Shown piece by piece: positions 689-36,785 of a DNA stretch of 64,000 nt. The notes below the pieces were generated by a model. It did not search any database. It was not told the origin of the DNA and saw nothing but the letters and a program-made list of their open reading frames with translations. How positions within the stretch are numbered: position 1 is the first letter of the stretch; the number at the start of each line of letters is the position of its first letter. The translations under genes and the position numbers were made by a program. Source of the stretch: Haliclystus octoradiatus (lineage: Eukaryota; Cnidaria; Staurozoa; Stauromedusae; Haliclystidae); contig OU744449.1 of assembly GCA_916610825.1 (NCBI GenBank), forward strand, positions 7,460,243 through 7,524,242, given 5' to 3'.

Positions 689-711
689 ATACTTTATGCA
701 AATGAGATACG

Positions 712-4370: not shown

Positions 4371-4641
4371 TCAACGACGAATTCAGCACGAAGGGAACAG
4401 ATGCAAGGAGTTTGAGCGCCAGCTTTGTAGTTTTGGACATATTTGAACTTTTCTCCACAACTTTTGCATCCGATTAAGCAAAAACAATCTCTAAAGTTGA
4501 GCAAAACATTTTTTCCTCCAACAATGTCGTACAAATCTTCAAATATTCGAGGATCACTTTGTTCTGTTTCCACTGAATCCATCGTTGACAATAATACGAC
4601 TCTCCTGTCAAAAGATTCAATATGGCATATATTATCTAGGG
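4371..4641 (-). CDS. Penultimate exon of an unrecognised minus-strand gene, four-cysteine cluster
   Basis: Open for 89 codons between an acceptor (ATCTGAG before 4641, phase 1 entry) and a donor (GA/GTGAAG, phase 2 exit). The encoded segment contains a Cys-x2-Cys (GCKSCGEKFK) and, about 20 residues later, Cys-x-Cys (TPCICS), a spacing that could bind zinc as in ribbon inserts of OB folds. That reading is inference; no family is recognised. The join to 3852-3963 keeps the frame and ends in a stop. The neighbouring coding-like stretches at 5.9-8.5 kb on the same strand may be its upstream exons. A 155-codon plus-strand frame across here is the shadow. Confidence 0.5.
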
Positions 4642-13511: not shown

Positions 13512-14267
<756 letters not shown>

Positions 14268-14406
14268 ATTACTATAAATTATTATTATAATCTAGAGCTA
14301 TAGTTTAGTATAATACTCCAAGTTTCACACCATATGGCGATCATCAGGCAAGTATAGATTTTATTATTTGCAAAGAGACATATCGATGCACTACATATAT
14401 ATATAC

Positions 14407-14544
14407 CTTTGATATCAAAATGAAGAACATTTAATCCTCTTTCTTTTATTTCAATTCTTTTTCCATTTACAGAAAAAGCCGAAGACGGTGTACCAGCCTG
14501 ATTAAATGAATGTGATTCAACATTTGCTGAAACCATCACTGATC
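14407..14544 (-). CDS. ILEI/FAM3-like domain exon of the left PAN gene (first half of the domain)
   Basis: Minus-strand exon of 138 bases between a clear acceptor (TTTAATTTTAG) and donor (AAAG/GTATAT). It enters with two bases and leaves with one (phase 1-1), with 45 open codons. The segment FSVNGKRIEIKERGLNVLHF fits the start of the ILEI/FAM3 (GG) domain, where a strand is followed by a conserved R-G-x-N-v-v-v motif. Its phase matches the phase 1 end of the PAN exon at 16530-16884, 2 kb upstream on the same strand, so I place it in the same gene. The matching second half of the domain was not found further left. Family assignment is by motif only. Confidence 0.6.
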
Positions 14545-15370
14545 CTAAAATTAAATAACACCATGAAAAGTATACATTTTATTTAAGCTAAAACTTGTGA
14601 ACATTTTGAACAAGTCCCTCTTTATCTATGCTATGTTAAGCGTGGAATCCTTCAAAAAGGGCTAAGTGTCTTACACATGATGTAACAGAATTAGCCTAAT
14701 AATAACATATGAAGAAGAGCCAAAACAAACTCCCAAATTTATTGAAAACGGTGACAAAATCCAAGAATATATCGTATCAGAGTACTAAATTTCCTCTTGC
14801 AGAAATATTTTATTTAAAAAAAATCAACCGAAGGAAGGTTTTCTAAAATATTGATCCGTTATAACTTCAGGAGATTTTTTACCCCCGTCCCCCACACAAA
14901 TTTGCTGGTTTATGATTCATTTTACGATCGCATCGCTATATAACATTCCAATTAGTTTTATCTTAGTTTTCAAGTATTACTTTATTGTCGGGCATATATG
15001 AGAATTTATTTGTGATTTTGGCTTTCCTGTAATTATTTTCCTGACAATGATAAACCATCGTTATTTAAAAACTATGGAGCTCCTTGTGCCAAAATTAGAC
15101 TTGGAACACAATCTCTCAATCTTATTTTTCTGAATAACAAAGTGCTTCAAATCTGAAATGTAGTCTGAAAGTTTCAGAAAAATCAAATCAAGGAAACCTT
15201 TGACCCCGTTTTTCCGAACCTCTTTAAATCATTCTACAAACTTCACAAGCTTTGCAAATGAGAAGTTTGAAAATTGTAATTTCGTGTCAACTGCAACTCA
15301 AGACATATCAGCAATATGCTCAAAGTCAATTATAGAAAATCAAACAAATTCATAAATACCTCACAATAGA
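14545..15370. other. Intron-like region
   Basis: Nothing recognisable; would be intron of the left PAN gene. Confidence 0.35.
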
Positions 15371-15464
15371 TGCTACAAAGACACTTATTCATGCCTTCGC
15401 TACGAGTAATGTAGACTACTGTAACTCGCTATTCAATGGTATGCCAAAGCACCTCATACATACA
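15371..15464 (+). pseudogene. LINE reverse transcriptase fragment
   Basis: A short plus-strand frame reads LIHAFATSNVDYCNSLFNG followed by MPKHLI and then a stop. This matches the conserved block near the end of the reverse transcriptase in CR1/L2/Jockey-type LINEs (usual form: LxxAFVTSRLDYCNSLLYGLP). The sequence on either side is no longer in frame. Decayed remnant, antisense inside the left PAN gene. Confidence 0.65.
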
Positions 15465-16529
15465 TAAATGTTTCTGTTGATGTATAGATATTTCGTTTAT
15501 GGACGAATGGTCGACAGCTGTCATGATCTAATCGTGCTCACTCGTCGTGATCAGAAAATATACATTATGACATCTCTTAAATTTGAGTTTTTGAGCCATG
15601 AGTCAAACCTATTTCCCGAGAGGAGCAAACTACTGTTACTACTGTTCAGACACACGCTAGATCCTGCTCTATTATATGCACTTGAAAGGGGAGGGGGGTG
15701 GTCTTGACGACATTATTAACTCCACTTGACTAAGCTAATGACGCTATGCCTCGTCAATCTTAAGGAATACATTGGCCAAGCTTACTGTCAATTTTTTTCA
15801 AACTTAACAAAATCAACAGAACGGATAGCTGAGAACAAAGCAAAATTCATCGACTTGCGTGTTGTGTTCTGTTTATTGAAGTGACTAATTCTCCAAAATT
15901 ATGTCTAATAAATCAGATAGGAGCTAAAGATGATGATTACAAGGAATTTATATAAATCCAAAAGATATCAATATCAAGGAAACATCAAGTCGGTAGACAA
16001 ATAAATCACATGTATGCTTAAAACATCTAGAATATAAAATATGGTAACAAATAACCATGTTAACGTTAATAGTATAATACAAAGAAGTGAGAAAGGACAG
16101 AAGTCTATTTAGTTACTTATCTCTATATGAAGAGAAATGTTGAGCTCTGACATACTGTGGTACACACTAAGTACCACAAGACAGGAACAAGTTCTACATA
16201 TGACCTGCCATATGATACGATTTAAGTTGACCAATCACGATGAGACAAATTAATGCTATTGATATAGATGATGAATTTTATTAACTATTGATTAGGTCAT
16301 TAAGTTATCTTAATTAATCCGGAATGATGTCATTCTGAAAGCGAGGCTGCTTCAAACATTTTCTAAATATGTTGCCAACATCAATTACGGATACAATCCA
16401 ATTATAAAAAGGAGAGCATAATAACTACAAATTAAACTATGCAAACAAGAAAAAGCAACAACATACAGACGTAAATGATTGAGGGAGATGATTCTAGAAT
16501 AACACTAGTGTCTTTGTTATAATGCTTAC

Positions 16530-16884
16530 GTTCATCTTTTTTGTAATGTATCATGGATGTTTGTCCAAGTCCAGCCATATTACCAGGACCATTTGGATTT
16601 CTCATCATCAAACAATTAACAGAGAACGTATTAATGATTGCAATACCAACGATAGAGCATTCTGTCATAGCCAGGCAAATTTGTAAACACTCAGTTGTTG
16701 AGCCAACGAAGATCTCTTTCAAAATTGCTGAATAACTCTGCAGAGGGGCGTTCAATACTGATGAAATTCGAAAGTACTTGATGTCTCTCATTATTGGTAA
16801 GGTTTCGGAATTAACAGCAATAATAGTGAAGATGTGAAATATTATCCAGGCCAGACTGCATCTGACGAAATGCATATAGCTCAT
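16530..16884 (-). CDS. First exon of the left PAN gene: signal peptide and PAN/apple-like domain
   Basis: Starts with ATG at 16884 and stays open for 118 codons to a donor (GAAC/GTAAGC, phase 1). Residues 1-26 form a signal peptide (hydrophobic SLAWIIFHIFTIIAV core). Residues about 35-115 have the PAN/apple arrangement of cysteines, C66-x3-C70-x5-C76 and C91. The paralogous exon at 36446-36785 has the same layout, length and donor position, which supports both the start and the splice site. PAN domains bind proteins or sugars; the partner is unknown. The next module is probably the ILEI-like exon at 14407-14544. Reading past the donor gives a hydrophobic tail, so a short membrane-anchored form from intron retention cannot be excluded. 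Confidence 0.65.
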
Positions 16885-16989
16885 GACGGTAGTCTCTTCT
16901 AGCCTTCTTCTAACGATTCGTCAGTAATAGAAATTGATAATGCTGTACAAGGAAATCTAACATCAGCTTCCAATTTTAATGTTTTTTAT

Positions 16990-17165
16990 ATATAATCTCG
17001 ATGGAATAAGAATAAACTTTGAGAGATAACTGTATAGATTGCATATGATGCACTGAAATGAAAGTCTACTTGATATGAAATGTGATAACATTAATCAATA
17101 ATTGATCGATTTCATTTGCATGTTCAGAATGCGCACTAAGATGCGCAGTAGCGAAGTTAGTTTTC
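16990..17165 (-). promoter_or_regulatory. Conserved upstream region of the left PAN gene
   Basis: Upstream of the PAN exon, AAGATGCGCAGTAGCGAAGTTA resembles AAGATGCGCGGTAGCAAGTTA upstream of the right paralogue (37055-37080). The shared block shows that the duplication included upstream DNA and may hold promoter elements. No TATA box was picked out. Confidence 0.35.
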
Positions 17166-17599
17166 AAGAAGGATTATTGACATCATTCTAAATATTTACA
17201 AGACCAGATGCTACTTTTTATTCATTTCAAATTTTTCTGCTCAGTAAGAAGTGCAGTATATCCAAATCCCTACAAGTCTGACAGGTGTCATAACTGAATA
17301 ATTGTCAGCATGCATACATTGCATGGTACTTTGTGATAGTGAGATGCTTGACGCGACGACCAATTATTTAATAAACAGGAATTGTTTCTTTTGGAAAATA
17401 TACCAGAAATATAATAGCATTCATGAAAAGGTATATTTATAGTATGATATTTATTGAAGAAAGGGAAAGAAGCAACTTATTCTTTTGATGAATAATATTA
17501 AGATGTTTAGTTGAAAAGCCGTCTGTGAAACATTTCAATTGTACAACAGTAGCGTCGTCTTGAAGGAAACAACTGCATGTGGAGGGAAAATCGTTATTC

Positions 17600-17794
17600 T
17601 GTCGTATATTATCAGAAGTTCACACAAAGAGAACAACAGTCTGCATTGACCATCAAGTATAATATAATCTTTAAGTTTCACATACCAGAATATAGATTAT
17701 TTAATGACTAAATAAACGAGGCCATGTAATAGCCCAAATGAGGCTGCTCCATTATCAACTATTACAAAGGCTGTTAAATAACCGTTATACGACA
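17600..17794 (-). repeat. 3' LTR of the Gypsy element
   Basis: Begins TGTCGTATA and ends TATACGACA on the plus strand, so the LTR has 9-bp inverted ends. About 195 bases and clearly alignable to 22308-22508 with scattered substitutions, so the insertion is not very recent. Confidence 0.95.
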
Positions 17795-17808
17795 ACTTCC
17801 CCTCTTCT
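17795..17808 (-). other. Polypurine tract of the Gypsy element
   Basis: On the minus strand AGAAGAGGGGAAGT lies directly before the 3' LTR, the position of plus-strand DNA priming. Confidence 0.8.
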
Positions 17809-17855
17809 ACGTTAAGATAATAATAATAAGAAAGATTTGTAACTATGTTATACAG

Positions 17856-18759
17856 TCATACATCATTAATGCCATATCGAGACGGTGGCTTAGACACTCT
17901 AGAAGAACGCCTAGGTCCACCATTAGAGGCGTTATCTAAGTCATGGGTCGATTCATTGTCACTCGAGTCAGTGTCATCAGTCTGATTTGAATACCGTTCC
18001 CCATTATTTAAGTTGAGTTGTGCCTCAGAAACTGCAGATGGTAGTCGACAAATTTGATTACTTGAAGCATGCACTGTACGTCCCTCCAATTGCAGCCAGG
18101 CAATGTTATTTGATTTGGGGATTAAAAAGTTAGCGATTTCTTGGGGACTTTTAGGAATTTGACGATATAAAACAGTGTCCCCAGGATTGTAATTTCTAAT
18201 AAATGGCACCATCAAACAATGATCAATGAGCAACTCACCAGGAGACTTACTACGGGCGACTGAGGTAGAGCGGTGAATAAGCAAGATCTTATTTACAAAC
18301 ATATCAAACGAAATGCGTAAATTTGGCTTCCAAGCTTTCATTAGAGGCTTCACGGTCTGGACTGCGCGTTCTGCTAAACCGTTAGATCGCAGAAAATATT
18401 ATGGAGATTTTGATTTGTAGCAGCCATAACTAGCAAGTCAATGGACAATGTCATCATTGATAAATTCACGCTCGTTGTCAGAAACAATATGTTTTGCAAC
18501 TCCAAAGCGGAAGAATAGGGCCGAAAATATACGTGTAATATCCGGGGTGGATCCATCAGGGCATCTAAAGGCTTTAATCCACCCTGTACCTGCATATACA
18601 ATATTTAATACATTGCCAATATCCATGGCCAAAATCCATATACAAACGTTCCCATGGGCCTACTTTCGGCCAAACATGAACATTCCCTGGTGGGTAGAAT
18701 GAGCCTTTTTTAAAACAGTGACATGTAGACTGGGGCGTATATACGGGCTTGACCCGCAA
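17856..18759 (-). pseudogene. pol: Gypsy integrase, core and C-terminal part, frames broken
   Basis: 18574-18759 carries a Cys followed by PWERLYMDFGH, the start of the integrase core. 18374-18632 covers the middle of the core (HIVSDNEREFIND, second catalytic Asp). 17856-18353 covers the end of the core and a C-terminal region with GDTVLYR, ending in an acidic and basic tail (GGPRRSSRVSKPPSRYG). Several stops and frame changes. Confidence 0.85.
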
Positions 18760-18967
18760 TAACTAACATTTCTGTCAAGCGTTAGATTCTCTGAAACACG
18801 ACTATAAGGACGATCGGCTTCTGATGGATGCTTCCAGTCACCAAAAATAATGCGCTTTTTTATGGATGTCCGGCGCTACAGGGTCGCAATCAGTGGCCGA
18901 TTTCAAGTCATTAAAGGTGATGACTGGTTGCAAAAAGGCTTGATTGCAAGAACTGTTCAGAGAAATA

Positions 18968-19234
18968 TTAGCACGATGTCCTCCGGGTCAGCTGCGAAAT
19001 GGAGAGGCCAGATAGAGCATCAGCGTGGTAGATTTCATCGCCAGGCTTGTGAGCGATAGTAAAGTCGAATGCCACAAGCTTAATTGCCCAACGGCAGAGT
19101 CTGGCAGACGCTGTTTTGGGGATAGGCTGGTCAGCGCCAAATAAATGGATTAAAGCTTTGTGATCTGTAATGAGATTAAAATGTCGCCCAAGTAATAGCT
19201 GCCTCAAACGCTCAATACACCACACTATTCCCAA
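18968..19234 (-). pseudogene. pol: Gypsy RNase H and connection
   Basis: Shows GRHFNLITDHKALIHLFG and then FTIAHKPGDEIYHADALSG, the conserved TDHKAL and xADALS blocks of Gypsy RNase H. Confidence 0.9.
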
Positions 19235-19789
19235 TGCCTCACGCTCAATAGCAGAATAATTTTTCCAGCTTGATTCAAAAAGAGAGAAATATAGATAACA
19301 GGTTTGCCCTCTTGAGTTAATACCCCTGCAATTACTTATTCAGAAGCATCCGTGGTCAATGTTGCTTGTTTGAGAAGAGAATAGGGCTGGACAATGGACC
19401 ACTAGATAACTCTGTTTTGAGTCTATCAAATGCTCGTGCACAAGCTTCATTCCAAACAAAGGTGGCATCCCTTTTTCGCAGCATGTTAAGCGGTTTCATT
19501 TTATCTTAAAGGTTTGGAATGAGGCGTCCAAAGAAATTGATTAGACCTATCAAAGATTCAAGCTCTTTTTTGTTTTCCGGCAACCTCATAGATTTTTATT
19601 TCAGTAATTAATTGTTCATTAGGCTGAACGCCTTTAGCAGATAAATTCTATAGCCTAGAAATGATATCTCTTGGACACGCTGCGTGCATTTTGACTCATT
19701 AATAGACAATCGGCGAGACATGAATCGTTCCATAACTGTGTTTAAGCGCTTATCAAGCAATTCTTCTTTTTTTTTGCAAAAATTAATAC

Positions 19790-19801
19790 ATCATCCTGAT
19801 A
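19790..19801 (-). other. Reverse transcriptase YQDD active-site motif of the Gypsy element
   Basis: On the minus strand TATCAGGATGAT encodes Y-Q-D-D, followed by VLIFA. It is separated from the rest of the palm by the LINE insertion and by a frame change. Confidence 0.8.
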
Positions 19802-19831
19802 CGCAAGTGCCTTTCAGACCTTTTAAAACTT

Positions 19832-19881
19832 TTTCGATGACGCACTGAAAATTCGCTGAGCTGTTTCGCATGCCCATTTGT
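19832..19881. repeat. 50-bp target duplication of the nested LINE, left copy
   Basis: Matches 20698-20747 over 50 bases with two differences. It represents Gypsy reverse transcriptase sequence duplicated when the LINE fragment inserted. Confidence 0.85.
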
Positions 19882-20697
19882 GTGTATGTGTGTGTGTGTT
19901 TTTTTATTTGAACTCGTTACCAAAATGAGCATTTGCAGCTCGTTTTACATTATTGATACAAATATAAAATAAGAATAATAACAATGAGTAATAATATTTA
20001 CAACAACAAACAATAATAATATTAGTAATAACAATAGTGAATATAAAGATCAAAACATTGAACAAAAAAAATGAAGAAATTATATATAATAGTGGAAATA
20101 GTAAAAATAAGTATAATAATAATATAATAATTTCAATAATAATAATGTTGATTTTTCTTTTTAATTAATCACGTATGTTAGTTGCTTGAGTATTTTTTAA
20201 CGGCTGCTAATATTCATCAGATGGCACCTTCTTTTCCATCCCAAAGCTGTGACGTATTCTGATAATGTTCTTTTAAAAGTTTGAATACTATGTTTCAGTA
20301 TTGTATGTGGTATAAATTGCCATAGCCTTGTCCAAACTGCCACAAATGACCATCTGAGTGAGGCTGCATGACATCGAGGTGAGACAAGGTTTTTAGGATT
20401 TTCGGATGACGTATATTTGGTAATAGATATTTTGAAGAGGGTGAATATCAAGTTTGGGGTTTCAGTTTTGAGTGTTTTGTGGATTATTGTGGCTAGCTTG
20501 ACTATTGTTCTAGTATGAAGGCTTTGAAGGAGGTTATCTTTGCAATGATTTTTGTAATAAGGAGTAAGTTGAGTGATGGATTTATTGAGTGATGGATGGA
20601 ACTCCACGATGGCAAAGAGAGGGGCTTGATAGCTCATTTTGTATTCTAACGGATTGCGTCCTTCCACTTAAGTAACTTGTTAATAATTTGCATTTAA
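19882..20697 (-). mobile_element. 5'-truncated LINE inserted in the Gypsy reverse transcriptase
   Basis: 816 bases bounded by the 50-bp direct repeat. The minus-strand frame 20197-20667 encodes the C-terminal end of a LINE ORF2, with the usual 'WTRLWQFIPHTI' block followed by a basic FKRTL segment. The 3' end on the minus strand finishes in TAAAAAAACACACACAC, the same tail seen at 5835-5890. Older than neither LTR: it sits inside the element. Confidence 0.85.
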
Positions 20698-20747
20698 TTT
20701 CGATGACGCACTGAAAAATCGCTGAGCTGTTTTGCATGCCCATTTGT
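20698..20747. repeat. 50-bp target duplication of the nested LINE, right copy
   Basis: Partner of 19832-19881. Confidence 0.85.
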
Positions 20748-20749
20748 AA

Positions 20750-20995
20750 CCATGTAACACGATATAATCCTTTGTTGGTATTTATAATTGACAATTCCTG
20801 CGCAAAATCATCTAATTTAACCTGCCAGTATGCAGATTGTAAGTCAATTTTATCGAAATAGTAAACGCCGTTTATTTCTGAAAATATGGTCTCCATGTGG
20901 GGTATAGGATAATCATCGTGTAAGATCTTGCCATTCACATGCACACTAAAATCACAGCACTCATCCGTAAGCCTCCTGACCGCATTTTTACCCAA
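20750..20995 (-). pseudogene. pol: Gypsy reverse transcriptase, palm segment
   Basis: Contains DDYPIPHMETIFSEINGVYY then FDKIDLQSAYWQV, with the first catalytic Asp of the reverse transcriptase. The frame then runs into the nested LINE insertion. The YQDD motif lies on the far side, at 19790-19801. Confidence 0.9.
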
Positions 20996-21462
20996 ACAAC
21001 TATGCTTGCATTCTCCACACCTCCTGATGTGATCGGCTCAATTACTCCCATAGCTTGTAATTTATTTAATTCATTATCTACCGCATCGTGCAAAGGGAGG
21101 GGGACAGGTCTGGCCCGGCTAAAAATTGGGCATGCACCCTCCTTTAGTTTCACTGAGGCAATAACGCCACGTATATAAGGTAACGGTTTTACTTCTATGA
21201 CAAAATCAACATGACCAGAGCAATCAAAATTATGACCTAACAATCCGTATGTACGACTAGGGTCTACAACATAAAACATCACATTTGGTAAATGACTGAG
21301 ATAATTTACATTAAGTTTACAGCTACCTAAACTAGCTAATTCGTGATCGTCATAACACTTCAATTTTTTTCTGGTACATTCCAAGTTTGGGCATCCGATT
21401 TTTTCCCACATTATTTTCGACAGAACAGAACAAGCCGCACATGTGTCATGCAACATTTCCAC
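20935..21462 (-). pseudogene. pol: Gypsy protease and start of reverse transcriptase
   Basis: The segment HDTCAACSVLSK occupies the position of the aspartic protease active site; the usual DTG/DSG reads DTC here, so it is probably inactive. A later VKLKEGACPIFSRARPVPL and GVIEPI mark the linker and the fingers of a Gypsy reverse transcriptase. Confidence 0.85.
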
Positions 21463-21489
21463 TGAAACACCATTAACGAGAGTCTCTTC

Positions 21490-22291
21490 AGTCGTTAATT
21501 ATGATTATCGCTCTGACGGTCATTACCATTGTTATTTTTATAACAGCACACAACAAAATGACCTCTTTTGTTGCAAATCGAGCAGTTCTTGTTAAATGCA
21601 GGACATGCACGCGGTGGATGATTTGTATCATAAAATTTGCATTTCCAGACTTTTTTTGCTATAATTCGGTTTTGAATTAACAGCCCCAACTGCATTAATA
21701 GGTTCAGTCTTTGTAGACACGCTTGTATCAGTAATGAACACCAAAGTCTGATTGTAGAGGTGTACACGCACTTTAAGGTCTTCAAATGTGGCATTTGGGT
21801 ATAGTTTAATATAATCAAGCAGCTTTTTAATCTCTTCTGCAGGATCAGACATCGCTTTCAATTGTGAACAGTCGCATCTTTCAGCAGCATAATTGATTCG
21901 TGCATAGACATCTTCAACTGATTCGTTGTCAGCTTTCTTTAAGTGATAGAAATTTTGTCCTCTCTCCCACTAAAAATTTTACTTTTGGCTCCAAGTAATC
22001 TTTTGCTAGCAAGTAGATTTCTTTATAGGACAATTCTTATAATTTGTTTGGCTTTGCCAATCTCGATAATTTAATGTAGGATGATTCCCCACATAGTTCA
22101 ACGAACAGGTCCGTGACTTGTAGCGCTTCTTGCTTCGTTGTATCTCCGTCTTTTAATTTCTCTCTCATGCATCGTGCATCGAATGCAGCTAACCATGCAT
22201 TGGCCTTTTCAATGTCGTATAATAAAAGCGAACGCTTTTTATCCATTTTCGAGAATTCGATTTGAGACAGTATTATCAAATTCGACACCAT
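21490..22291 (-). pseudogene. gag: Gypsy gag with zinc knuckle, frame broken
   Basis: Minus-strand frames at 22037-22291, 21628-21861 and 21495-21818 together give a capsid-like Leu-rich segment. It is followed by a Cys/His nucleocapsid region (CPAFNKNCSICNKRGHF with further Cys), of the type found in Mag-like gag. Stops and frame changes split it. The likely initiator is the Met before DKKRSLLLYDIEKANAW, just inside the 5' LTR. Confidence 0.8.
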
Positions 22292-22307
22292 ACTCGCAGT
22301 GCTAATT

Positions 22308-22508
22308 TGTCGTATATTATCAGAAGTTCACACACAGAGAGCAATAGTCTGCATAGTCTGCATTAACCATCAAGTAGAATCTAATCAAGTTTCACATACA
22401 AGAATACAGATAATGTAATGATCAAATAAACGAGGCCACGTAATAGCCTAAAGGAGGCTGCTCAATTATCAACTAATACAGAGGCTGTTAGATAATCGTT
22501 ATACGACA
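22308..22508 (-). repeat. 5' LTR of the Gypsy element
   Basis: 201 bases, partner of 17600-17794. It carries a small tandem duplication (AGTCTGCAT twice) that the other copy lacks. Confidence 0.95.
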
Positions 22509-22719
22509 TATTCGGCATAAAAAGTCACACAATACGACGTACAATTTACTCGGAATTTTCGTGTAAGAATTGACTCAAAGTCATCTGTAAAACATGACAT
22601 TCTCCTTGAAATATAATCAATTTAAGTAGGACTTATAATGTAATTCATCCGGGAATTCATCCACTGCGAAGAAAACACGAATACTAGGATCAACTCTGAT
22701 CCAACGTCATTTCATGTTG

Positions 22720-22895
22720 CGTTGATCATCGTGACCTGTCTGCCATGAAATCTGTTGAAATTGGTCTGCAGTGTCGCGGCTGAGATCAGTAAAGAGCGCT
22801 CAAAATCGTTGGTCTTAGCGAATAAAGCCATTCCTCTATAGAAATAAAGGAGTGGTTCCGGTGCCTTCGGTAGGGCGACGCCGTCTACATTACTT
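22720..22895 (+). repeat. SINE fragment, 3' part
   Basis: Aligns to the body and tail of the complete SINE at 54503-54813: ATCTGTTGAAATTGGTCT, GCTGAGATCA, then GGTGCCTTCGGTAGGGCG and CCGTCTACATTACTT. The tRNA-like head is missing or too diverged to see. Confidence 0.65.
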
Positions 22896-24779
22896 CAACT
22901 TTTGCGCTCAACAACTTTCCTTTGAATTTGCATATTGGATTAGGTTGTTTCTACGATAGGGACTGAAAAAATAGCTTAAAGTAGCGGTGCCAATCGATTT
23001 CTTGACAAATGTCGCCGCACTACCTCAGCGGATTTTTCTGTGAGCGCTTATCGCCCTGATCTTTAACCAATCAAAATGCAATAAGTAAGCCTCAATCTGA
23101 GGAAGCTTCCAAAAGCTTTCAATTTTGCACTTTTCCTCCTTTCCCAAAAGTGTTGTGAGTTTTATTGCTTAGACCATGTAAAAGCTGTAAGTAAAAAAGA
23201 CTAGAACGTATTATCTGATTTTTCGAAATAGAGAAACATCTAGCTGGGAGGAGAAACGAAATGGGATTGTAAATATGTCGACTATAAGTGTTGGATTTTT
23301 AAATCTTTTATGCATGATGGATTTCGAATAATCTGTATGTTTACTGCTTAGTTTATTATTTAAGTTTGTAAATTAAGTGTTATGTGATCTTAAGATCAGG
23401 TAGGGATGTGTGATTTATGTTTAGATATATTGCGTGTTGTCCCTTCCTGTGATCATAGCCATGATGTAATTTATGATGTAATGTCAACTCGTAAATTCTG
23501 CCAGCTGACTGCGAGATCGCAGCTCAGCGGTGATTGTTAATATATAGAACAGAATTTGAAGTCATGTCACGGACTCGCGTTTAGAGTTAGTCGAGGACCA
23601 GTGACATGAGAACTACTTGAAACTATTACTGTGTCGTTTATGTCTCCCTCACATCAACCATAGTCTTACATAATCATCAATATATATATATATTCCTGAT
23701 TTTACCGTGGTTCTTAATTGATTTGACAATGCATGTTTGGAGATATTAATTACAGTTTTATTTGGATGAATTATGTCGTTACTGAGATAAAGCACTAGAC
23801 GTGACGTGGCTGCTCAAACCTTCAAATCGATCCAGGCAAATTAAAAACATGATAATATATACAATATTGTATCACTGAACACAAAAAACAACGTGTGCCT
23901 TTCCAATTTACTTGTATCATCATTTAATTTGATATTTTCTAGTAGGTAATTTGATGACATCGATTTTTGAAATAATAGGTTCGCGCCATGATACTACAGA
24001 TTCAACATGATGTAACAGATTCGCAAAGCGCGTGGGATTGAAAATAAGAAATTTTCGAAGTTCGTTCGGGGGTAATTTTACATAATGTGAGCGACTTTCA
24101 TTATTATTAACAGAAGTGTTGAGGCTTTATTTCTTGTAATAAAACATTATTCTTCTATTATTTTATATAAAATCTTCTTCTATGTTTGAACTTTAATCCG
24201 TCTGGTAAATAAAACTACGATATCTGATGATATGCTCAATATAAGGAATGATATGCTCACCCCTACTCGGTTGACATTAATGTAATCAAAAAATCAAAAC
24301 ATTGAGCACGTGGCTAGTGCGAAGCATAAAATAACGATTCATGCTATTCCATTACAAATTTTACTGGATTTTAGTCTTTTATCGATCCAAATAACAAATT
24401 CAATTAACTTTTATTCACCAACAATATTACTTTATACCTCTTAAGCCAGTACGCAGTAATGCATGTATAAAGTTGGACAGCAAATATATAGCGTTGATAC
24501 TTATAATTATACGAATTTGATGTTTATTATTCACATTATATTTCAGTGTTACTGCTTCAATTTTGAAGAGGCATCATATCTAGATTGGTTCATTCTATAT
24601 GTACTCTAGATGTTTAGAATAGCACAATCCACTAAGTATCATAGATATTTCGAATCACGCTTAACACACGCACCGTCCAAATAATGAGTCAAACTAAGAA
24701 CGTGACGTCCAAATCATGAGTCAAGCTATAACAGCTAATATAAATGTGGGTTCCATACCTCAGAAAAATATGACAATTC
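22896..24779. other. Region without a recognised gene
   Basis: Nothing coding seen. 23330-23700 resembles a promoter-like or solo-LTR sequence (stretch with TATATAGAACAG followed by GC-richer DNA), but no borders could be defined. Confidence 0.3.
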
Positions 24780-27393: not shown

Positions 27394-27396
27394 TAA

Positions 27397-29417
27397 AGGG
27401 CCATTTACACTGCAGCAAAATAGGCACGGTACTCTTCAATTAACACATCAAAGGTGTGAAGGTGTCAAGTGTTTTTGAGCACGGGCCAAGCAAAAACACT
27501 GTCTAAACGGCTTTTTCAGACATTGAAAAGCGGCACCGTGCCTACTATTTTGATCGGGCCGAGATCATTTCTCGAGGTAGTCTCGGCCCGCTCAAAAAGT
27601 GGACACCGTGCCGTTTTGCAGTAATTATGACGTCATCGTAGAAGTTGCGTCTCTTTACAGTGGAATTCTAAGGTTTTCTAATAAAATCAGTAACAGACTA
27701 AAGATTACCAAAGCTAGATAAGCACATTGAGCATATTTTGTTACGTATTTCTTTTGAAAATTAATGAAGTTTCTGTAGTATAAGGTTTAATTATGCAAAT
27801 TGTAACTACGAGTGTGGAGCGTAAATTTAGATGTGTCTTTTGTCACAGAAATACTGATCTGGCGTGGTAGCATGTTCAGGAGGTGAAAGACTAACCCAAA
27901 TGTATTTGAATTTTGCTCAATGGAGATAGGAATGTAACAAAAATTTAAATATTATAATTGATGAAAAACATAGTGATTTTCAGTTCAACGGAATCCTTAC
28001 AAGTTATTTAACATAATTGAATCTCAATTTATCGAATTTCACCTGTAAAACGTAAAACCATTAAATAATGAGAAACCTATAATTCAGTTTGTAAGTTTTC
28101 AATCTCGGCCCGCGTAAAAATAGGCACGGTCGATCTTGAAAACAGTTTTTAATAAGCTGTGTAAGCCCTGAAAAAAAACAGCACCGTAGTGCCTATAATG
28201 GGGCCACTTTACATTGCGCATGTCTTGAAAAAATAACGCGTGCGATTGCTCTAAGTTTCTCACATGTTGGTAATACAAAATGGCGTCATCTGTTATTGTT
28301 ATGAACAAGAAGATGGAAATATTTGTTTTAAATTTATATGCATGCTTAGATTATTTGAAAGACTTAGGAGAGTATCGCAATTCAAAAGAAATAAATCATT
28401 TAACATAATTATACACTCGTGTTGGGTTTATTCCGAGTGGTTACATATTATTGACTGTTTACTTTAAAAGCGTAGGTCATTGTGGCGTTGTCGAAGAAAT
28501 GGTCAATTACCAAGCTTATTTTTCGTTCTCGGTTTGATATGTCAGCTTGAAAACTTTGATATACAGTTATAAAATATTCAAATGTTTTATTATTCGACAT
28601 AAACATTGTCCATAGCATGCTATACAGAATTTAAGTTAAACTATTTACAAAAGCATGGACGGGTAGATTTTATGTAAAATATCAAAACGGCTTATTATTA
28701 AAATATTTCATATTGAGTCGCTATACTGAAAAGTATAAATTCTGTAAATTTATTATGATCTTTAACATGGAAACAGTAATCTCAAAAACAACAACAAACA
28801 AACACCGAGTGTGAATATCATTTCTTGCATCGCGGAGATGTGTGAAATGCCGTGACGACATGGCTAGAACAATGGCGAGCACGAAGGATAATGCCAGTTC
28901 ACTGTAGGAAAATGCTTCGGAGGGGAATTTTACTCACATTTAGATCTAAAAATAAATAAAAACTGGCCAATCATAGATTTCCCTACCAGGAACTAACTGG
29001 GTTGATGACTTCCTTTCACTATACTCAACGTTATCTTGATATTTTGCTCGCGATTCAACACGCGATATTTTACTTGGCCATACAAACCCTTGTTGATGAG
29101 TTTAAAAATTGACGATGTTTGACAAGCTTGGAGGGGAATTTCTTAGAAGGTAACTAAAATCTAACACCATTTCTATGTTTCGTTTCATGTCAAGATAACA
29201 GAATTGGCTGGGTTGGGATGATTGATAATGCTTATTTATTATAAATAGTCTATTTTGCTTCAAAATGTTAGTATTTTTGCGTGACTTGTGTGATTTTGAC
29301 GCGCCCGCAAATACGCGATGGCTCGATTATTGGCACTACGCGGGCCGCATTCTTGTTAACACCTCGAGTGTTAATTGACGAGTACTGTGCCTTTTTTGCT
29401 GCAGAGTAAATGGCCCT
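27397..29417. mobile_element. PIF/Harbinger-type DNA transposon, probably non-autonomous
   Basis: The terminal inverted repeat begins AGGGCCATTTACACTGCAGC and its right partner is the near-perfect complement. A TAA duplication (27394-27396, 29418-29420) flanks it, the TWA target of PIF/Harbinger. The motif GGCACGGT recurs in both orientations below the ends (27422, 27533, 27604, 28124), perhaps as transposase-binding sites. A perfect TGACGTCA lies at 27628. About 2 kb long; a short plus-strand frame from about 28281 starts with MASSVIVMNKKMEIF, but no transposase catalytic motif was found. Confidence 0.85.
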
Positions 29418-29520
29418 TAAGGATCAGTAACAATGACCTGTCTGCTACTATATTTTCAACTATATATAGTACATACACTTCTTTAAAAACTAAACATTGT
29501 TTTGATTCTTCACATAGAGT

Positions 29521-29900
29521 TCAATCTACAATAATTGGAAAGAACAAAAACATTAATCGAGAACTTGAACCACAGCTAGGATGAAGCACGAATGTATCTC
29601 CACCATTAGTCCCAACTGAACCACCTTTGGGATGAATGCAATTTGCAGTTTGGATGTGTTTGATTAATTCAGATTGTAGATGTTCAAATTTACTATTTTC
29701 TAATTCGCAAAATGTTGTCACAATGATGTTGTAATTGCTATCTGGTGCCAGACAACGTTCAGAAGAGCCAATATAAATTCTACCATCATCTGCAAGACTG
29801 AAGTTATCACATTGTTTTTCGCTTGAACTCAGAATATTTATCAGTACGTTATCAACAATTGCCATGCACACCAAATCATTATCTTTGTGATGGATGGTTC
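29521..29900 (-). CDS. Last exon of the right PAN gene, C-terminal CIHPKGG domain
   Basis: Acceptor TCTTGAACAG before 29900; enters with two bases, 125 codons plus TGA at 29521-29523. The encoded part has several Cys and a pattern DDGRIYIGSSERCLAP, then ANCIHPKGGS and VLHPSCGSSSRL. The C-I-H-P-x-G-G-S followed by V-L-H-x-x-C recalls the repeats of beta-trefoil or similar lectin modules, which I cannot name for certain. It follows the TSP1 exon 0.6 kb upstream in matching phase (C/GA makes an Arg codon). Confidence 0.65.
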
Positions 29901-32900
29901 CTGTTCAAGAGAAAAATATATTTGAGTGGTTACATATATTTACCACCTGTGACAGTTTTATCTAGCGACATATATTCATTATAATTACCTTATTGGTTTA
30001 CAAAATCCTAAACGAATGGCCTTCAACGATTTTCTCTAAAATTTTCAAACCTTGAATAGTAGTGCTTTTCTTCCTTATGTTATTCTTTATCATGTTAGTA
30101 ATTTTGTATTCGTTATAGATAGCAAAAAAGCATGGAACAATCTAAATATTTTTTTATTAGATGACACAAGAAAATATAAATTATTGCTGTGATACTTTAG
30201 ACGAATTTATGGCATATATCATTTCGATGGACTTTCAAGTTCAGAAAGATTCAAAGTTGTGCATAATCAAGAATGATTAACATATATACAAAGATATAAC
30301 TTTAAGAAATGAGATATTGTTTTCGGTTTTATGTGTGTCAAATCAGAATATCGAAAACGTTTCTGAAACTTGCTTCATTTCTATTTTGCGACGTATTCGT
30401 CTATAAATCACAGCGCATAACATGGAAAAATACTCCAAGCTTGATAATAATAAATTGCAGAGTCATTGTGATTGAATAAAATTTAGAATTGTTTCTCACG
30501 TGCTGTACACCGTCTTGTCTCGTGATCATCACTGTTACATAGTTTACCATCATTTGCTGGTGCAGGATTGGTACATGTTCTATAACGGTATTGCATATTG
30601 GTTGTTGGTGTACAGCCCATCCATCTTGACCAATCACTGAATTCCCCATCAACTGGATCAACTAAAAAAATTCAGCAAAAAATATAATTTTGCAGTCTAA
30701 AATAACAAACAGGGAATGAGATATTAGTGTTACTAGTTGAAATAAATACAGAATAAAATGAAATATTTCAGAGGGATTAATATGCGATTTCTGACAGATG
30801 TTATTAATTGTTACTATATTAAGCATGGCTGGTTGATCATGTTATATTGTCTATAGGTTGAAATTACATTTTTCGATGCTGTTATGATGAGATGAGATGA
30901 ACTTATCCACCACATAGAAACCAAATGTTTCTATCAATGATCATATAATGCCAATTTGCTTGGAAGATTTTCTCACTTTGAGACAAATTTTCTTGCGATA
31001 TATAACTGTGTTTTGCAAAATGAATTACTTGGATTGAGTAAGATTGTGCATACAAAATGATTTGTTCCCTGTTGTTTTGGAGTATGGAGGACTGGAGGTC
31101 ACAATCATGACCAATTAAAATTACGAGTTTCCTCCTTGAGCAGCAATAATCATTAGATCAATGTTTAAATTTCTATGACTCCCATTTAGATGAATATCAT
31201 TTGATTTCAAGATAAAGGATGGCGACAAAAAATAAACAGATTTAGGTTTAAACATATGACGTGTCATCCTTATTTAACAATATCTCAGTTGAAAAAACTA
31301 TCGATATACTAGCCCAAAAAGCCTTCAAAGATGACTGGTTCAATCAAACATGCAAACTATCATTAACGTCCAGTGAACTTTTAGAGTTTCTATTATTAGC
31401 AACAGAGAACCAATTGTTTCAATTTGAGGTTGAACTTTTTGAAAAAATTGATGGCATTGCCTTAGGATCCCCTCTTGGACCCTTGATGGCTGATGTCCAA
31501 ATTATTACCGTCGTTATGTCGATGAAACTCTATAGCAGTTATGCCTATGTATTGAAATTGTAAATAATTTTCTCAAATTATTGAATGATACTTCAGAATT
31601 AAATTTCACTCTAGAAATAGAAGTTGAAAATCAAATACGATTTATCGGTATATTACTAAAAAGAGCTAATTGTAGTATTGAAACTTCGGTTTACCCCTAA
31701 CCCACTGACAATGGGTTATTGTTATGTGGACATTCAATACAAGCGGGGGCTACTACTAACGTTGCTTGATCGAGCACACCGTTTATCAACTAATGATTAT
31801 TCAATTAATTCTGAATGTATTACTATCAAAAACATATTTTTAAAACTTAAGCATCCTATGTACTTAATTAATTTTCGTATTTCTTAAGTTTAAGGCTAGG
31901 GTTATATGGACGCACCGAACTCAATTCGAATTAGGTGCGACACCGAATAGCATTAAATTCGCATTTGGGGTTATACAGACGAACAAAATGTCGACGATCT
32001 TTAAAAACTGGCCAAAATGTCACGTGATAGGAAGTAGTTTTCTTGGAATTATGCCGCATGGTTTGAAACCAGAGTGTTTTGTTTGCATTATTTTTCATTT
32101 TCAGCGATTTTTCCGTTCTATTTTGCCTATCTATAGTTTGAAACTTGTATGAAGTAGTAATCTCGAAGGTTTGCAAGCATTTTTACGGGAGACAGTTTTT
32201 GTTTTAGCAAGGCATAGTACTCAGAGCAAATTGAATGCGAATTTCCATTTAGATAACGTATTATGATAAAAGCGACCCCAATTCTAGTGCTGATGCATTG
32301 TGATTGACTAGAAGAAAGCGTTTTTATTGTTTTAAATCATGATTTGGGAAAACATCAGCTTCCCTGTCAGCCATCTTTCAATCATATAAACAAGTCACCA
32401 TAACAACTTCCCAAAAGCGATGTTCTTTCCATCGCATTGCCATGGAAATATTCTTTAAAATGATTTATGATTTGTACATCCCCCGGTTTATTGCCATATA
32501 AGGTAAATATAGGAGCTCAGTCACGGCACCATGAGTGGAATGTATTTAGTTCGGTGCGATGATAGCTCGCTCGTATAATGCGGCGATGAATTTAATTCAT
32601 GGAGAAGAGATCCGCACGTCAAGGCTTGACGTGCGGAGCTAGCTTGACGCACTTAATGTTTTTGAGGAATGTTGATGAACCGAATGATGTTATACGAAGC
32701 GCGCTATCATGAGATTTAATTCGAATGAATGAATCAATTGAGTTCGGTGCGTCCATATAACCCTAGCCTAAGGCCTAGGTTATACAGCGTGCCAGCAGCG
32801 CACCGCGCCAAGGGTGTCGTGGCTCGGTGCTGGCGCGCTGATTTCAGGTTTCAAATCATACAGCGTGCCATGACAGCGTGCTATAATTTGGTGCGTTTTA

Positions 32901-35900
32901 TATGGGGCATGAGATTATTTTTCTTGAGCGCCAAAATTCAACATGGCTGGCGTGAGTAGGAGTGTTTTGTATATGAAGTCATTGCTTTTATCAAATAATT
33001 TAAATAAACGTAGGAGAGTTATGTTGATGTCAACTTTATGTTATCAAATTGATAAGAATGCCGACTTCTAACATGAAAGAGGGCGATTCTTGCGCACGTT
33101 TTGCTTTTATATGGTGAATTTCGCGCCAAAATTTATAAATTATTGGTAATTTATTAAAAATAACGCATAATTAGTTATGGCAATTCCTTTAGTTGTGCAA
33201 TCACTACATTGTGAGCTTATTGCTTGGATTTACGACATTCAACTCAACACCATCTTTAATTTTAAATTCATCACCATGGCAATCGATTCTAGAACGAGGC
33301 GATTCATTTTATTTTAAATACACAACCCCCAGGTTTATCTAAAAATAGCGTTTCCGGTTATGTCTGGAAACATAGCACGGCTTGGCTCGCTCAAAACCAG
33401 CGAGCCAGAGCATTTGGAGCGAGCCAGCATCAAGGCACTGAGCCGATCCAAGTCAGACGAGCGCGCCAAGAGCGTGCTTGAAAAAAATGCTGGCGCGGTG
33501 CGCTGCTGGCACGCTGTATAACCTAGGCCTAAGCTACCTAATAATGTAGATTTAGACAACATAACCCGTAACAAAAGAGATGCAATTAAAATTTTTTGCC
33601 TTACAAAGACAAAGTTTCCGTCAATTCACTACGCCGACAATTGAAAACTCTGACTGTGCGTTCTTTACCTATTCAAGTCTGATTCGTGCGATGCAAGCAA
33701 TGTTTTGACGAACATAGTGGATCGGCAGGCGGTTTACACTTCAAGTACAAACACACAATAAAAATGTCAAAATTGAGGACATCTTTTTTCTGTACTGAGG
33801 AAGTGACCAATAAATTTGATTGTTTAATCCATGAAATGTTATCAATCAAAGAGCTAAATCCGACCCTCAACAATCAGAAGGACTCCGTCCAGTCTAGGGT
33901 ATTTGTATAACTCTACCGAAGTAAATAATACATATTCTTTGTTATATTGTTTTGTACCCAATTTTATAATCACGTAAATTTTTACTATAAATACTTAATA
34001 TGTTTACTATATGTTTAATATGTTTTAAAAATAAATAAATATGTTATTCCTTTTAACCAGAAGATGCAATTAAGCTATTGCGAAACGTTGTTTAAACCTA
34101 AGCCTGTTCATTTTTTGTCGCTATCCTTTATCTTGAAATGTTTTACGAAGTAACTTTTACTGAATCATTTGATTTGTGATAGTAAATAAATAAAAAATTA
34201 ATTATTTTTAACTCTATATGGCTGCTAGCCTGTGTACCTGTCCTGATGTATTTCCTGAAACCATTGGGTCCATCAAAAATAACACCTATATGCTATTGGT
34301 AAATTATTCACACTCTATCACAAAAGATCAATTGTAATGAAATCGCAACTCTTCCTCAATCGCGTCATACTGATCAACAACAACAATGATCTTAATGATA
34401 ATACGACGTAATGCATAAATTATATTCCAAACTCATGGGAATTTGCTGGGCTAAATATCACGCTTTAGTTTACAGACCCTATGGTTTCAGAAAAAACCTC
34501 GGGGCTGGTATTCAGGCTATATGGCTGCGTGAGACAGACTTTTCATTTAGGATTTTTTTTGCGCAATAGCGCCGACTTTAGGGCACTATTGTTCTATCCG
34601 CTACCACTTTCGTGGTAGTATGTTGTGATTGGCTAATAATGCATATGAACAATTGGCAAACATTTTACACATAGAAAATTGAGTAATCACAGGAAACCAC
34701 ACTACGTAAATATTTATTTACTATGAATTCAGTATAAAAACTAAGTATGCGATACTCTGCGCCAATACGCAGACTGACTATACGAAGGAAAATTATGTTT
34801 GCACGCGGGCTAATGGCAGACACCACATGGAAACCAAATGTTCTTATTATCAATGATCATATAGAACAAATTTGCTTGGAATACTTTCCTACATTGAGAT
34901 AAATTTTATTGCAATAGAACTCGAAATCGAAATACTTGGATTGGAAGTCAGTTTGTGTATAAAAAACTTTTTAACTATCGCTTCTGGAGTTTGGAGGTCT
35001 GCAGGGGTCACATGTCCAATCAAAAGTACGATCTTCCTCCCTCAGGAGCAATAATAATTAGATCAATTTTTAAATTTGTAATGGCATATGGTGTTTGATA
35101 ATAGAGTAGCATCTATATTCTTTATTATTCTTCTAACACTTTTACGAATCAGGCTTCAAATATGCAATAACCATAATAATTAGGCATAAAAGCTAAAAAA
35201 ATAACCCCAGGGGGTAGCTCCAGCTCTTCAGGGACGGGGGGGATGTGCCAGTTTGGAAATACGTAAAGTATCCAAAAAACGTTCCAAAATTCTGTTGATG
35301 CTACCCAAAAAGTTTCAGCAGGTTGATTGATTTTAAGTAAATACACAAGAATGATGCAAAAATTTTTCAAAAATTCTTGAAAAAGTCAAAAATAGGATAT
35401 ACGAATTTTGCAAAAGCTCCAAATTTGGAATCTCATAACCAAAACGTTTTTTCTCAGCTTGAATATGGACCCAAAAAAAGTGGCACGTCCCTGTATAGCT
35501 GTCATAGTGGAGTTACCCCCCGGGAAAATAACATACAGAATGTTTACTAATAAGCCATGTTCAACTAATTAACACATTTAGTGAATGTACATTATACTGT
35601 ATACATCTCTATAACCGCTTTACGCCATTAAAGTAATAATTGTATGATTCTGTTTAAAATTCTTTAATAAGCAAACAAACAAAATACAACAAACATCAAT
35701 AATGCATTGCTCTCTCGTCATTCTGTACAAATATAACTTTGAAAACTTGCATACAAAAATGATTACTATGGTAAAATCAATATAGAACTGGTTTCTTATC
35801 TTTCTTGATAGAGAATAGAATAGTTTGTCTTCTATACATTAGATAAATTTGCAAATTTGAAAACAATGATTGAAATCAGTAACAGAAGCATCAATTGCTA

Positions 35901-36785
35901 TCATAAACGTAATGACAGCTGAAAAATGATTGAAAATTACACCTTCCATACACGCTACCATTTTTTTTTTATCATAAACGAGATGGGATAAGATTACTAC
36001 ATTGACATCTTAATACATTCATTTTACTATGTTAGTTTACACAATATAAATAATTTACATTCTATAATTTGAGGCAGCTGTTCTAGATGCCTAGATATTT
36101 AACTGTGGGATATTGTGTGATATGCATATCTAACTATCTATTTCTATGGGTCTTGCATTCATATTTTATTTAGTTCTTCTTTAGATTTAGCTTCATAGCA
36201 GTTTTCTAATTTATAATATTTATTCAATAGTTCTACTCCTTGAAAGGAGACCGAATAGCTGAAATTGCAATGCAAATGGCTGTTTTTATTTTAAAGGCAT
36301 AAAATAGCCATCGCGCCTTAAAGTTGAAAAATGAATGTCATTTTTCAAGCCACAAGTAGCGTAGTAAATCAGTTCATATTTGAAACCGAGCGCAAAGACT
36401 GCTTGTTAATGTTATGCCTTTAAATCTTATCGTTATAAAGCTTACCTTTATCTTGTTTGTAAAATTTCATGGATATTTGTGCCAAGCCAACAACATTAAC
36501 GGGACCATATGCATCTCTCCATAACAAACAATCAACAGATCCCGTATTAATTATTTCAATACCCACGCTGAAGCATTCTGTCATAACCAGGCAGCATTGA
36601 AAACATTCTGTTGCAGATCCTGTATTGAACATCTCTTTCAAAATCATTGTATAGTTCAATGGTGGGGCATTCACCGTCCTGAAGTAATCTGCCTCAGTTA
36701 TGAGGTTGTCAGCGTTAACAGTATTAAGGAAGATATGAAATAGCAACCAGGCAAGGTAAAAAGCCACAATATTATAAATGTACAT
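29521..36785 (-). CDS. Right PAN gene: predicted secreted PAN - ILEI/FAM3-like - TSP1 protein (gene span)
   Basis: Composite minus-strand gene. Exons seen: 36446-36785 (signal peptide and PAN-like domain, phase 1 end), about 31170-31125 and 31005-30911 (second half of an ILEI/FAM3-like domain), 30661-30500 (thrombospondin type 1 domain) and 29900-29521 (Cys-containing C-terminal part with stop). From the 31.1-kb exon to the stop every junction keeps phase. The exon for the first half of the ILEI domain, expected from the left paralogue, was not found, and a Penelope-like element lies directly beside the 31.1-kb exon. The gene may therefore be damaged or need another exon. All modules are extracellular types with phase 1 borders, so a secreted protein of the cell surface or matrix is likely; the role is unknown. 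Confidence 0.5.
30500..30661 (-). CDS. Thrombospondin type 1 exon of the right PAN gene
   Basis: 162 bases between acceptor TTTTTTTAG and donor GCAC/GTGAGA, phase 1-1. The 53 codons read EFSDWSRWMGC, then YRYRTCTNPAPANDGKLC and HETRRC. This is the full TSP1 pattern: two Trp of the W-x-x-W layer, the Arg ladder, six-Cys-type spacing and the NPAP...G turn. TSP1 modules bind glycosaminoglycans and other proteins and are often C- and O-mannosylated at this W-S-x-W. The reading frame with the longest open stretch here is a different, false one. Confidence 0.85.
30911..31005 (-). CDS. ILEI/FAM3-like exon (end of the domain) of the right PAN gene
   Basis: Acceptor CAAAACACAG before 31005; one base, 31 codons, one base; donor ATGTG/GTGGAT. 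The segment reads QENLSQSEKIFQANWHYMII then DRNIWFLC. The closing hydrophobic motif R-N-I-W-F-L-C-G fits the end of ILEI/FAM3 domains (usual form RDxWVFVGGKG). The phase fits the exon upstream (TC/T gives Ser) and the TSP1 exon downstream (G/TT gives Val). A decayed duplicate lies at 34822-34930. Confidence 0.6.
31125..31170 (-). CDS. ILEI/FAM3-like exon (middle of the domain), 5' border unresolved
   Basis: Ends at a donor AACTC/GTAATT (phase 2). The frame reads HRNLNIDLMIIAAQGGNS, resembling the L-x-x-x-D-x-I-V-L-x-A strand of ILEI/FAM3 domains. The upstream border is unclear because the Penelope-like element inserted at 31196-31207, about 30 bases away, and no acceptor with the expected phase was seen. 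Confidence 0.4.
31196..31207. repeat. 12-bp target duplication of the Penelope-like element, left
   Basis: ATCATTTGATTT, identical to 34164-34175. Confidence 0.8.
31261..31887 (+). pseudogene. Penelope-like reverse transcriptase fragment
   Basis: The frame begins at the palm block SSLFNNISVEKTIDILAQ and includes IDGIALGSPLGPLMADV, the conserved G-x-A-M-G-S-P-L-G-P motif of Penelope-like enzymes. After a frame change come YRRYVDET (active-site region, where the usual Y-V-D-D reads YVDE) and then YKRGLLLTLLDRAHRLS. Decayed, with the N-terminus missing. Confidence 0.85.
31894..32768. mobile_element. PIF/Harbinger-type MITE, copy 1
   Basis: Perfect terminal inverted repeats of about 33 bases starting GGCTAGGGTTATATGGACGC, flanked by TAA on both sides (31891-31893, 32769-32771). 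875 bases, no transposase. A near-perfect internal palindrome (CCGCACGTCAAG / CTTGACGTGCGG) lies around 32610-32638. A second, right-truncated copy is at 58660-59443. Confidence 0.95.
32772..33529. mobile_element. PIF/Harbinger-type MITE, second family, adjacent
   Basis: Perfect terminal inverted repeats beginning GGCCTAGGTTATACAGCGTG, flanked by TAA at 32769-32771 and 33530-33532. The left TAA is also the right flank of the preceding MITE, so one inserted exactly at the border of the other. Subterminal arms are rich in GCGCCA/TGGCGC motifs. 758 bases, no transposase. Confidence 0.95.
33540..33910 (+). pseudogene. Penelope-like C-terminus (GIY-YIG endonuclease side)
   Basis: The last frame encodes TSFFCTEEVTNKFDCLIHE and then MLSIKELNPTLNNQKDSVQS, the conserved end of GIY-YIG-bearing Penelope-like proteins (usual xxLIxEMLxIKxLxPxLNxQxDS). 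Upstream codons (C-D-A-S-N-V-L region) have lost frame, so the nuclease is not intact. Confidence 0.8.
34164..34821. other. Intron of the right PAN gene
   Basis: Starts with the right 12-bp duplication of the Penelope-like element (34164-34175). No exon accepted. A small palindrome CCACTTTCGTGG lies near 34604. Confidence 0.4.
34822..35140 (-). pseudogene. Decayed duplicate of the ILEI/FAM3-like exons
   Basis: Aligns along its length to 30900-31206 and continues past the point where the Penelope-like element splits that copy. The middle-exon frame survives (NLKIDLIIIAPEGGRSYF, donor ATC/GTACTT at the same place). The copy of the closing exon has an in-frame stop and a frame loss. A tandem duplication of about 0.3 kb inside the gene followed by decay explains it; alternatively it is an alternative exon set. 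Confidence 0.55.
35206..35524. mobile_element. Short hAT-like MITE
   Basis: Ends CCCAGGGGGTAGCTCCA and, inverted, CCCGGGGGGTAACTCCA, with an 8-bp duplication AAAATAAC at 35198-35205 and 35525-35532. 319 bases, no coding capacity; in the intron of the right PAN gene. Confidence 0.85.
35533..36445. other. First intron of the right PAN gene
   Basis: Nothing recognisable; the expected exon for the first half of the ILEI domain was looked for here and not found. Confidence 0.4.
36446..36785 (-). CDS. First exon of the right PAN gene: signal peptide and PAN/apple-like domain
   Basis: ATG at 36785, 113 open codons, donor AAAG/GTAAGC in phase 1, at the same place as in the paralogue at 16530-16884. 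Residues 1-25 are a signal peptide (AFYLAWLLFHIFLNTVNA). The PAN-like core has ATECFQCCLVMTEC with C61, C64/C65, C71 and a later C86. Compared with the left paralogue, the Cys pattern is kept and an extra neighbouring Cys is gained. Transcription would run leftwards through the ILEI and TSP1 exons. Confidence 0.65.

Follow-up and report, generated by a model that had tools for sequence, protein, structure and literature searches.

Putative secreted-protein genes of Haliclystus octoradiatus with a common PAN-like first exon and different 3' modules

A stretch of 64,000 nucleotides from the stauromedusa Haliclystus octoradiatus (assembly GCA_916610825.1, contig OU744449.1, forward-strand positions 7,460,243 to 7,524,242, or C5:7460243-7524242; 'the window' below) contains two predicted minus-strand genes, A and B, whose products would begin alike and end differently. 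A preliminary description, made from the sequence alone, had placed here two paralogous secreted proteins combining PAN, ILEI/FAM3-like and TSP1 modules. We searched the genome (262-Mb assembly, 33 contigs) exon by exon; the exons of both genes were joined on splice signals, phase and recurrence. Gene A (window 36785-29521) has three exons, both introns in phase 1, and a spliced product of 293 amino acids (aa), read as signal peptide-PAN-TSP1-trefoil. Gene B (window 16884-4367) has four exons, introns 1 and 2 in phase 1 and intron 3 in phase 2, and a spliced product of 275 aa, read as signal peptide-PAN-ILEI and then a stop. Loci elsewhere are given by contig and position in Mb. The features are:

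36446..36785, minus strand: gene A exon 1, predicted signal peptide and PAN-like domain; ATG at 36785, phase-1 donor g/gtaag
30500..30661, minus strand: gene A exon 2, TSP1; phase 1-1, acceptor ttttttttag/tt, donor c/gtgag
29521..29900, minus strand: gene A exon 3, predicted C-terminal beta-trefoil R-type lectin domain and stop; acceptor gaacag/ga, stop tga at 29521-29523
16530..16884, minus strand: gene B exon 1, predicted signal peptide and PAN-like domain; phase-1 donor; PAN_1 14.8 bits, E 0.026, cut-off 21.4
14407..14544, minus strand: gene B exon 2, first part of ILEI; phase 1-1, acceptor ttttag/ga, donor g/gtata
12647..12743, minus strand: gene B exon 3, middle of ILEI; phase 1 to 2, homologous to gene C
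4367..4604, minus strand: gene B exon 4, last part of ILEI and stop; acceptor gacag/g, stop tga at 4367-4369
13512..14268, no strand: microsatellite of AAT units (about 252 copies) within gene B intron 2

The first exons of the two genes have the same layout, as had already been recognised: each (36785-36446 and 16884-16530) carries an ATG, a hydrophobic leader and a core with four cysteines, and its phase-1 donor stands at the corresponding position. They are 53% identical over 112 codons (53-54% when gene A is compared with gene B and with gene C, a third copy introduced below). The leaders, whose hydrophobic cores score 2.0-3.1 (Kyte-Doolittle), probably direct the secretion of both predicted proteins. 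The four cysteines are invariant across 14 aligned members of the exon family, one of which is the classical-type exon of the locus at C4 33.14. In a test that listed only the PAN families from Pfam, PAN_1 matches 11 of the 14 at E up to 0.1, the lowest value being 5.8e-5. These cysteines and the family-wide similarity to PAN_1 may point to a PAN/apple domain, yet single exons stay under the Pfam gathering score, exons of this type (type 2) reaching at best 14.8-16.8 bits for a cut-off of 21.4; the PAN profile matched no chain of the PDB at E up to 5. We treat the domain as PAN-like, the call being weak for single members. Matches of exon 1 on C1, C2, C5 at 9.18 Mb and C4 at 28.9 Mb (E 3.5e-4 or weaker), several of which lie in retroelement frames, were left out of the family.

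Behind this exon, gene B encodes an ILEI/FAM3-type domain, its spliced product scoring 31.2 bits with Pfam ILEI (cut-off 27). The phase 1-1 exon at 14544-14407 had been reported before, its last base being where the region of the preliminary description began; the two further ILEI exons (12743-12647 and 4604-4367) both lie outside that region (14407..36785) and had been missed, as had gene C. Exons homologous to exon 2 are found in gene C and at three C4 loci, and exon 4 has 14 matches in the genome at E up to 4.4e-7; the other nine of the 23 obtained, which sit in long open frames at E about 0.09, were discarded as chance. Immediately to the left of the window, gene C repeats the four-exon layout of gene B and has a product of 272 aa; between the end of gene B and the start of gene C lies a 1.3-kb direct duplication (window -598..697 and 1978-3252, 96.5% identical). 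The same four exons also occur in a copy at C4 31.70, where ILEI scores 29.4 bits, again over the cut-off. Searches of the C5 stretch by tblastn and profile revealed neither a TSP1 nor a trefoil exon in gene B or gene C. These Pfam scores of gene B and the C4 31.70 copy are what likens them to FAM3/ILEI proteins (FAM3A-D, the POMGnT1 stem, C. elegans FAMP-1). Unlike the comparison set in the available part of PMC9802357, gene B has its ILEI domain behind a PAN exon and no glycosyltransferase part. A FAM3 orthologue should be a single-domain secreted protein, and a PAN exon lies upstream at all eight loci of this kind.

Gene A continues otherwise. Its phase 1-1 exon at 30661-30500, described earlier as TSP1, exceeds the Pfam TSP_1 gathering score when taken alone (24.9 bits, cut-off 21.6) and falls just under it inside the spliced product (21.0 bits). 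The last exon, at 29900-29521 with the stop, had been noted for its cysteines, its lectin nature having escaped attention; the structure prediction then suggested gave an AlphaFold2 model with 12 strands (pLDDT 91.7, pTM 0.85), a beta-trefoil. Foldseek returned 32 matches to this model at E up to 0.001, with CBM13 at the top (TM 0.76), ricin also among them and mussel lectins at TM 0.66-0.71. Among PDB sequences, phmmer matched the exon to MITSUBA-1, a MytiLec derivative, at 1.7e-9, as well as to CGL, Mytilus lectins and SaroL-1, and a profile of 21 trefoil sequences reached E 3.3e-22; in sequence, mussel lectins of the MytiLec type come closest. Pfam Ricin_B_lectin remains under its cut-off of 29, both for the exon (19.7 bits) and for the spliced product (17.6 bits), while relatives of the domain score 26.5 and 25.2 bits. 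On the strength of the model and these matches we read the last exon as a beta-trefoil R-type lectin domain, and reject its reading as an unclassified cysteine module.

With mytilectins (MytiLec, CGL and SeviL-type lectins; SaroL-1), the gene A domain shares the predicted beta-trefoil fold and a CIHPKGG segment resembling the HPKGG repeats of MITSUBA-1 and CGL. The HPxGG type of motif is the sugar-binding motif of mytilectin subdomains. Mytilectins have three of them, whereas inspection of gene A finds one, in the third of three subdomains. Unlike in mytilectins, the trefoil here is the last exon of a PAN-TSP1 gene with a signal peptide. As far as the available part of PMC10744619 describes them, mytilectins are either proto-type, consisting of the trefoil only, or chimera-type, with a pore-forming domain added at the C-terminal end, and gene A has no room for that domain, which most of them possess. 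We rejected the assignment to mytilectins on both the three motifs and the architecture. Searches of the C5 stretch by tblastn and profile brought up no ILEI exon in gene A, and since the lectin exon ends in a stop (29521-29523), its frame cannot run on into ILEI. A candidate ILEI piece at 34292-34146 was rejected, because it belongs to an inverted pair whose other copy lies on the opposite strand, and neither ILEI profile picked it up.

Both combinations recur in the genome, and they do so separately. Genome searches place PAN and the first and last ILEI exons in order on one strand at eight loci: genes B and C on C5; C4 31.67, 31.70 and 31.78; and C7 20.69, 20.74 and 20.77, the three C7 copies being nearly identical to each other. 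These loci were counted on those three exons, the middle ILEI exon being read in three. Type-2 PAN, TSP1 and trefoil exons occur together at four loci, gene A and C4 31.31, 31.34 and 31.36, all within 4.5-6.3 kb in each of the three C4 genes. Within the fetched C4 and C5 stretches (mostly 1.5 kb), in which pairing was judged, 12 of 17 trefoil exons have an upstream TSP1 exon on the same strand. At C4 33.09 and 33.14, the first exon of the trefoil gene lies 4-6 kb upstream and is of another PAN type, the classical one. A profile search of the PAN-ILEI stretch C4 31690500-31709999, fetched whole, found no TSP1 or trefoil exon, and no TSP1 other than that of gene A was found in the C5 stretch with a profile of eight sequences (open segments of at least 25 aa, E up to 0.01); two earlier TSP1 probes missed even the TSP1 exon of gene A and carry no weight against a second one. 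Keyword searches of open-licence papers met neither architecture, which is weak evidence of absence. The genome is rich in exons for secreted modules, with 1432 TSP1 candidates and 220 classical PAN first-exon candidates (the best 150 of each were scored, so that counts drawn from them are lower bounds) and 53 trefoil matches among 55 candidates. At C7:8.90-8.92 and 8.97-8.98 Mb, TSP1 exons among the matches listed are paired about 65-66 kb apart, as if by recent duplication of a large block.

The idea that both genes encode a single architecture, PAN plus ILEI plus TSP1, has become highly improbable. All three kinds of exon do share a strand and a span of 23 kb, their phase-1 junctions are compatible, and splicing of TSP1 to ILEI is conceivable in a transcript that leaves out the lectin exon and gene B exon 1. 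However, genes B and C end with ILEI and a stop and gene A with the lectin and a stop; TSP1 is confined to gene A in the C5 stretch and was not met in the C4 31.69-31.71 PAN-ILEI stretch; and the two combinations recur apart. The single protein type of the preliminary description is not supported, ILEI exons being found in gene B only and TSP1 and lectin in gene A only. Its tandemly duplicated family survives in the paralogous first exons, not in a common architecture, and its theme of extracellular modules shuffled on phase-1 exons is borne out.

We consider it likely, from sequence comparison, that genes A and B are two separate secreted-protein genes of one family, with a common 5' unit and different 3' modules, diversified by exchange of exon 1 in tandem arrays. 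A variant in which each cluster supplies a choice of first exons and of 3' modules, with one promoter-PAN unit spliced to several of the latter, could draw on the fact that all intermodular junctions are phase 1 and that several trefoil-less PAN-TSP1 units precede trefoil-bearing ones on C4. It appears very unlikely, given the gene-like order of exon 1, modules and stop in every tandem unit.

Judged by divergence, exon 1 in tandem copies has had a history of its own, distinct from that of the modules behind it. For the C4 neighbours D1 and D2, TSP1 plus trefoil are 85% identical in aa with a silent divergence (pS) of 0.11, and exon 1 is 30% identical with pS 0.72. For genes B and C the pattern is reversed, with exon 1 at 90% aa identity and pS 0.07, and ILEI at 58% and pS 0.40. 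None of 5000 codon permutations reached the observed difference for D1-D2, and none of 5000 for B-C. At the DNA level D1 is a mosaic, its part up to 31315326 resembling D1b and D0b, and its part from 31316529 onward resembling D2; about eight tandem repeats of 127 bp, at 31315326-31316343, lie all within its phase-1 intron 1. The 3' halves of D1 and D2 are near-identical, 3' flank included, and their first exons are unrelated. Between B and C, the block of high identity takes in exon 1 together with about 450 bp before it, and fades soon after intron 1 starts. Such a block resembles a conversion tract; gene conversion, or else a strongly constrained exon 1, might account for the discordance in place of crossing over, a possibility that we regard as real if somewhat doubtful. 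Since D1 and D2 show the opposite pattern, with unrelated first exons and a near-identical 3' half, constraint on exon 1 cannot account for that pair.

Gene A itself looks mixed in origin, as similarities and trees suggest. Its nearest relatives among the matches listed are C4 30.87, 33.09 and 33.14 (TSP1 52-57%, trefoil 46-49%; best 150 out of 658 candidates scored, a lower bound), and its trefoil is 29-32% identical to those of D1-D3. Its exon 1 is nearest to those of B and C (53-54%), at 22-28% to D0b, D1, D1b, D2 and D3 and at 16% to that of C4 33.14. Trees group the gene A trefoil with 30.87, 33.09 and 33.14 at 63/22, and the PAN exons of A, B and C at 82/91. Alternatively, exon 1 of gene A may be what is left of a decayed PAN-ILEI gene, the TSP1-trefoil exons using another first exon or being a fragment. 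Its closeness to the PAN-ILEI genes B and C, an intron 1 of 5.8 kb, and the classical PAN exon at the start of the nearest C4 TSP1-trefoil relatives would fit such a remnant. Yet tblastn and the genome listing (best 150 of 220) found no classical PAN exon in C5 7440243-7524242, three C4 genes hold type-2 PAN, TSP1 and trefoil close together, and the three exons of gene A are all open with intact splice signals; we find this scenario unlikely.

Several observations weigh against two separate genes diversified by exchange of exon 1. All exon joins derive from sequence signals. Exon 1 of gene A alone has no Pfam match, PAN included, so that the profile check of the preliminary description succeeds for ILEI in gene B and for PAN in the family, and fails for PAN in this exon; the predicted PAN model is poor (pLDDT 64), and Foldseek found nothing significant with it (best E 0.75). 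The ILEI domain of gene C scores 18.2 bits, under the Pfam cut-off. With an HPxGG motif in a single subdomain out of three, sugar binding by the gene A trefoil is not assured. For D2-D3, the divergence of exon 1 does not differ significantly from that of the rest (405 of 5000 permutations), and the trees, although they agree in direction, place gene A weakly and with long-branch warnings. Lastly, behind three PAN-TSP1 units at C4 31.273, 31.288 and 31.330 (C4:31272859-31332610) no trefoil was detected ahead of the following PAN exon or trefoil gene; these units could be truncated genes or serve as alternative first parts, and the modules are possibly wired in other ways too.

Other repeats lie in the window. 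Decayed pieces of a Ty3/gypsy-like retroelement are present on the minus strand between genes A and B (17856-21969), where four of the eight open frames tested matched anything: RT_RNaseH (62.6 bits) and an aspartyl protease (32.9 bits) are over their cut-offs, RVT_1 and rve under. A 785-bp repeat is found at 31893-32675 and 58659-59443 (98.3% identical), and arrays of 11-bp, 22-bp and 32-bp units around the palindrome TTCATGAA at 53579-57875.

In the mechanism we propose, the common 5' unit would consist of upstream sequence, signal peptide and a PAN exon with its phase-1 donor, followed by an ILEI/FAM3-type domain in gene B and by a TSP1 repeat and a beta-trefoil R-type lectin in gene A. Swaps would result from unequal crossing over, or from gene conversion, with an end point in intron 1, where the frame is kept because the junction is phase 1. 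A part for the 127-bp and AAT repeats in this exchange is a guess. A swap would alter the recognised target and leave the unit of secretion and expression unchanged. R-type lectins bind sugars. For FAM3C, the POMGnT1 stem and a worm FAM3-like domain, binding of N-acetylglucosamine (GlcNAc) and other sugars is reported in the available part of PMC9802357, and both 3' modules are therefore plausible glycan binders. The family is probably secreted and glycan-binding, and its proteins are likely used in mucus, extracellular matrix or immune recognition.

In its mode of diversification the family recalls Sp185/333 of sea urchins, tandem secreted genes with microsatellites for which, in the available part of PMC3091723, repeat-associated duplication and conversion are proposed. 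The element patterns of Sp185/333 vary inside one exon, whereas here whole phase-1 modules of different folds would be exchanged behind exon 1. One may speculate, with some reserve, that the genome keeps a large combinatorial repertoire of secreted glycan-recognising proteins for innate recognition, in which the unit of promoter, signal peptide and PAN exon is again and again re-paired with ILEI or TSP1-trefoil through a repeat-bearing phase-1 intron 1, by shuffling that is still ongoing. The usual evidence for exon shuffling comes from old proteins whose assembly is long complete. With few silent changes, split histories and a switch inside one intron in these tandem copies, module exchange could be followed here as a recent process.

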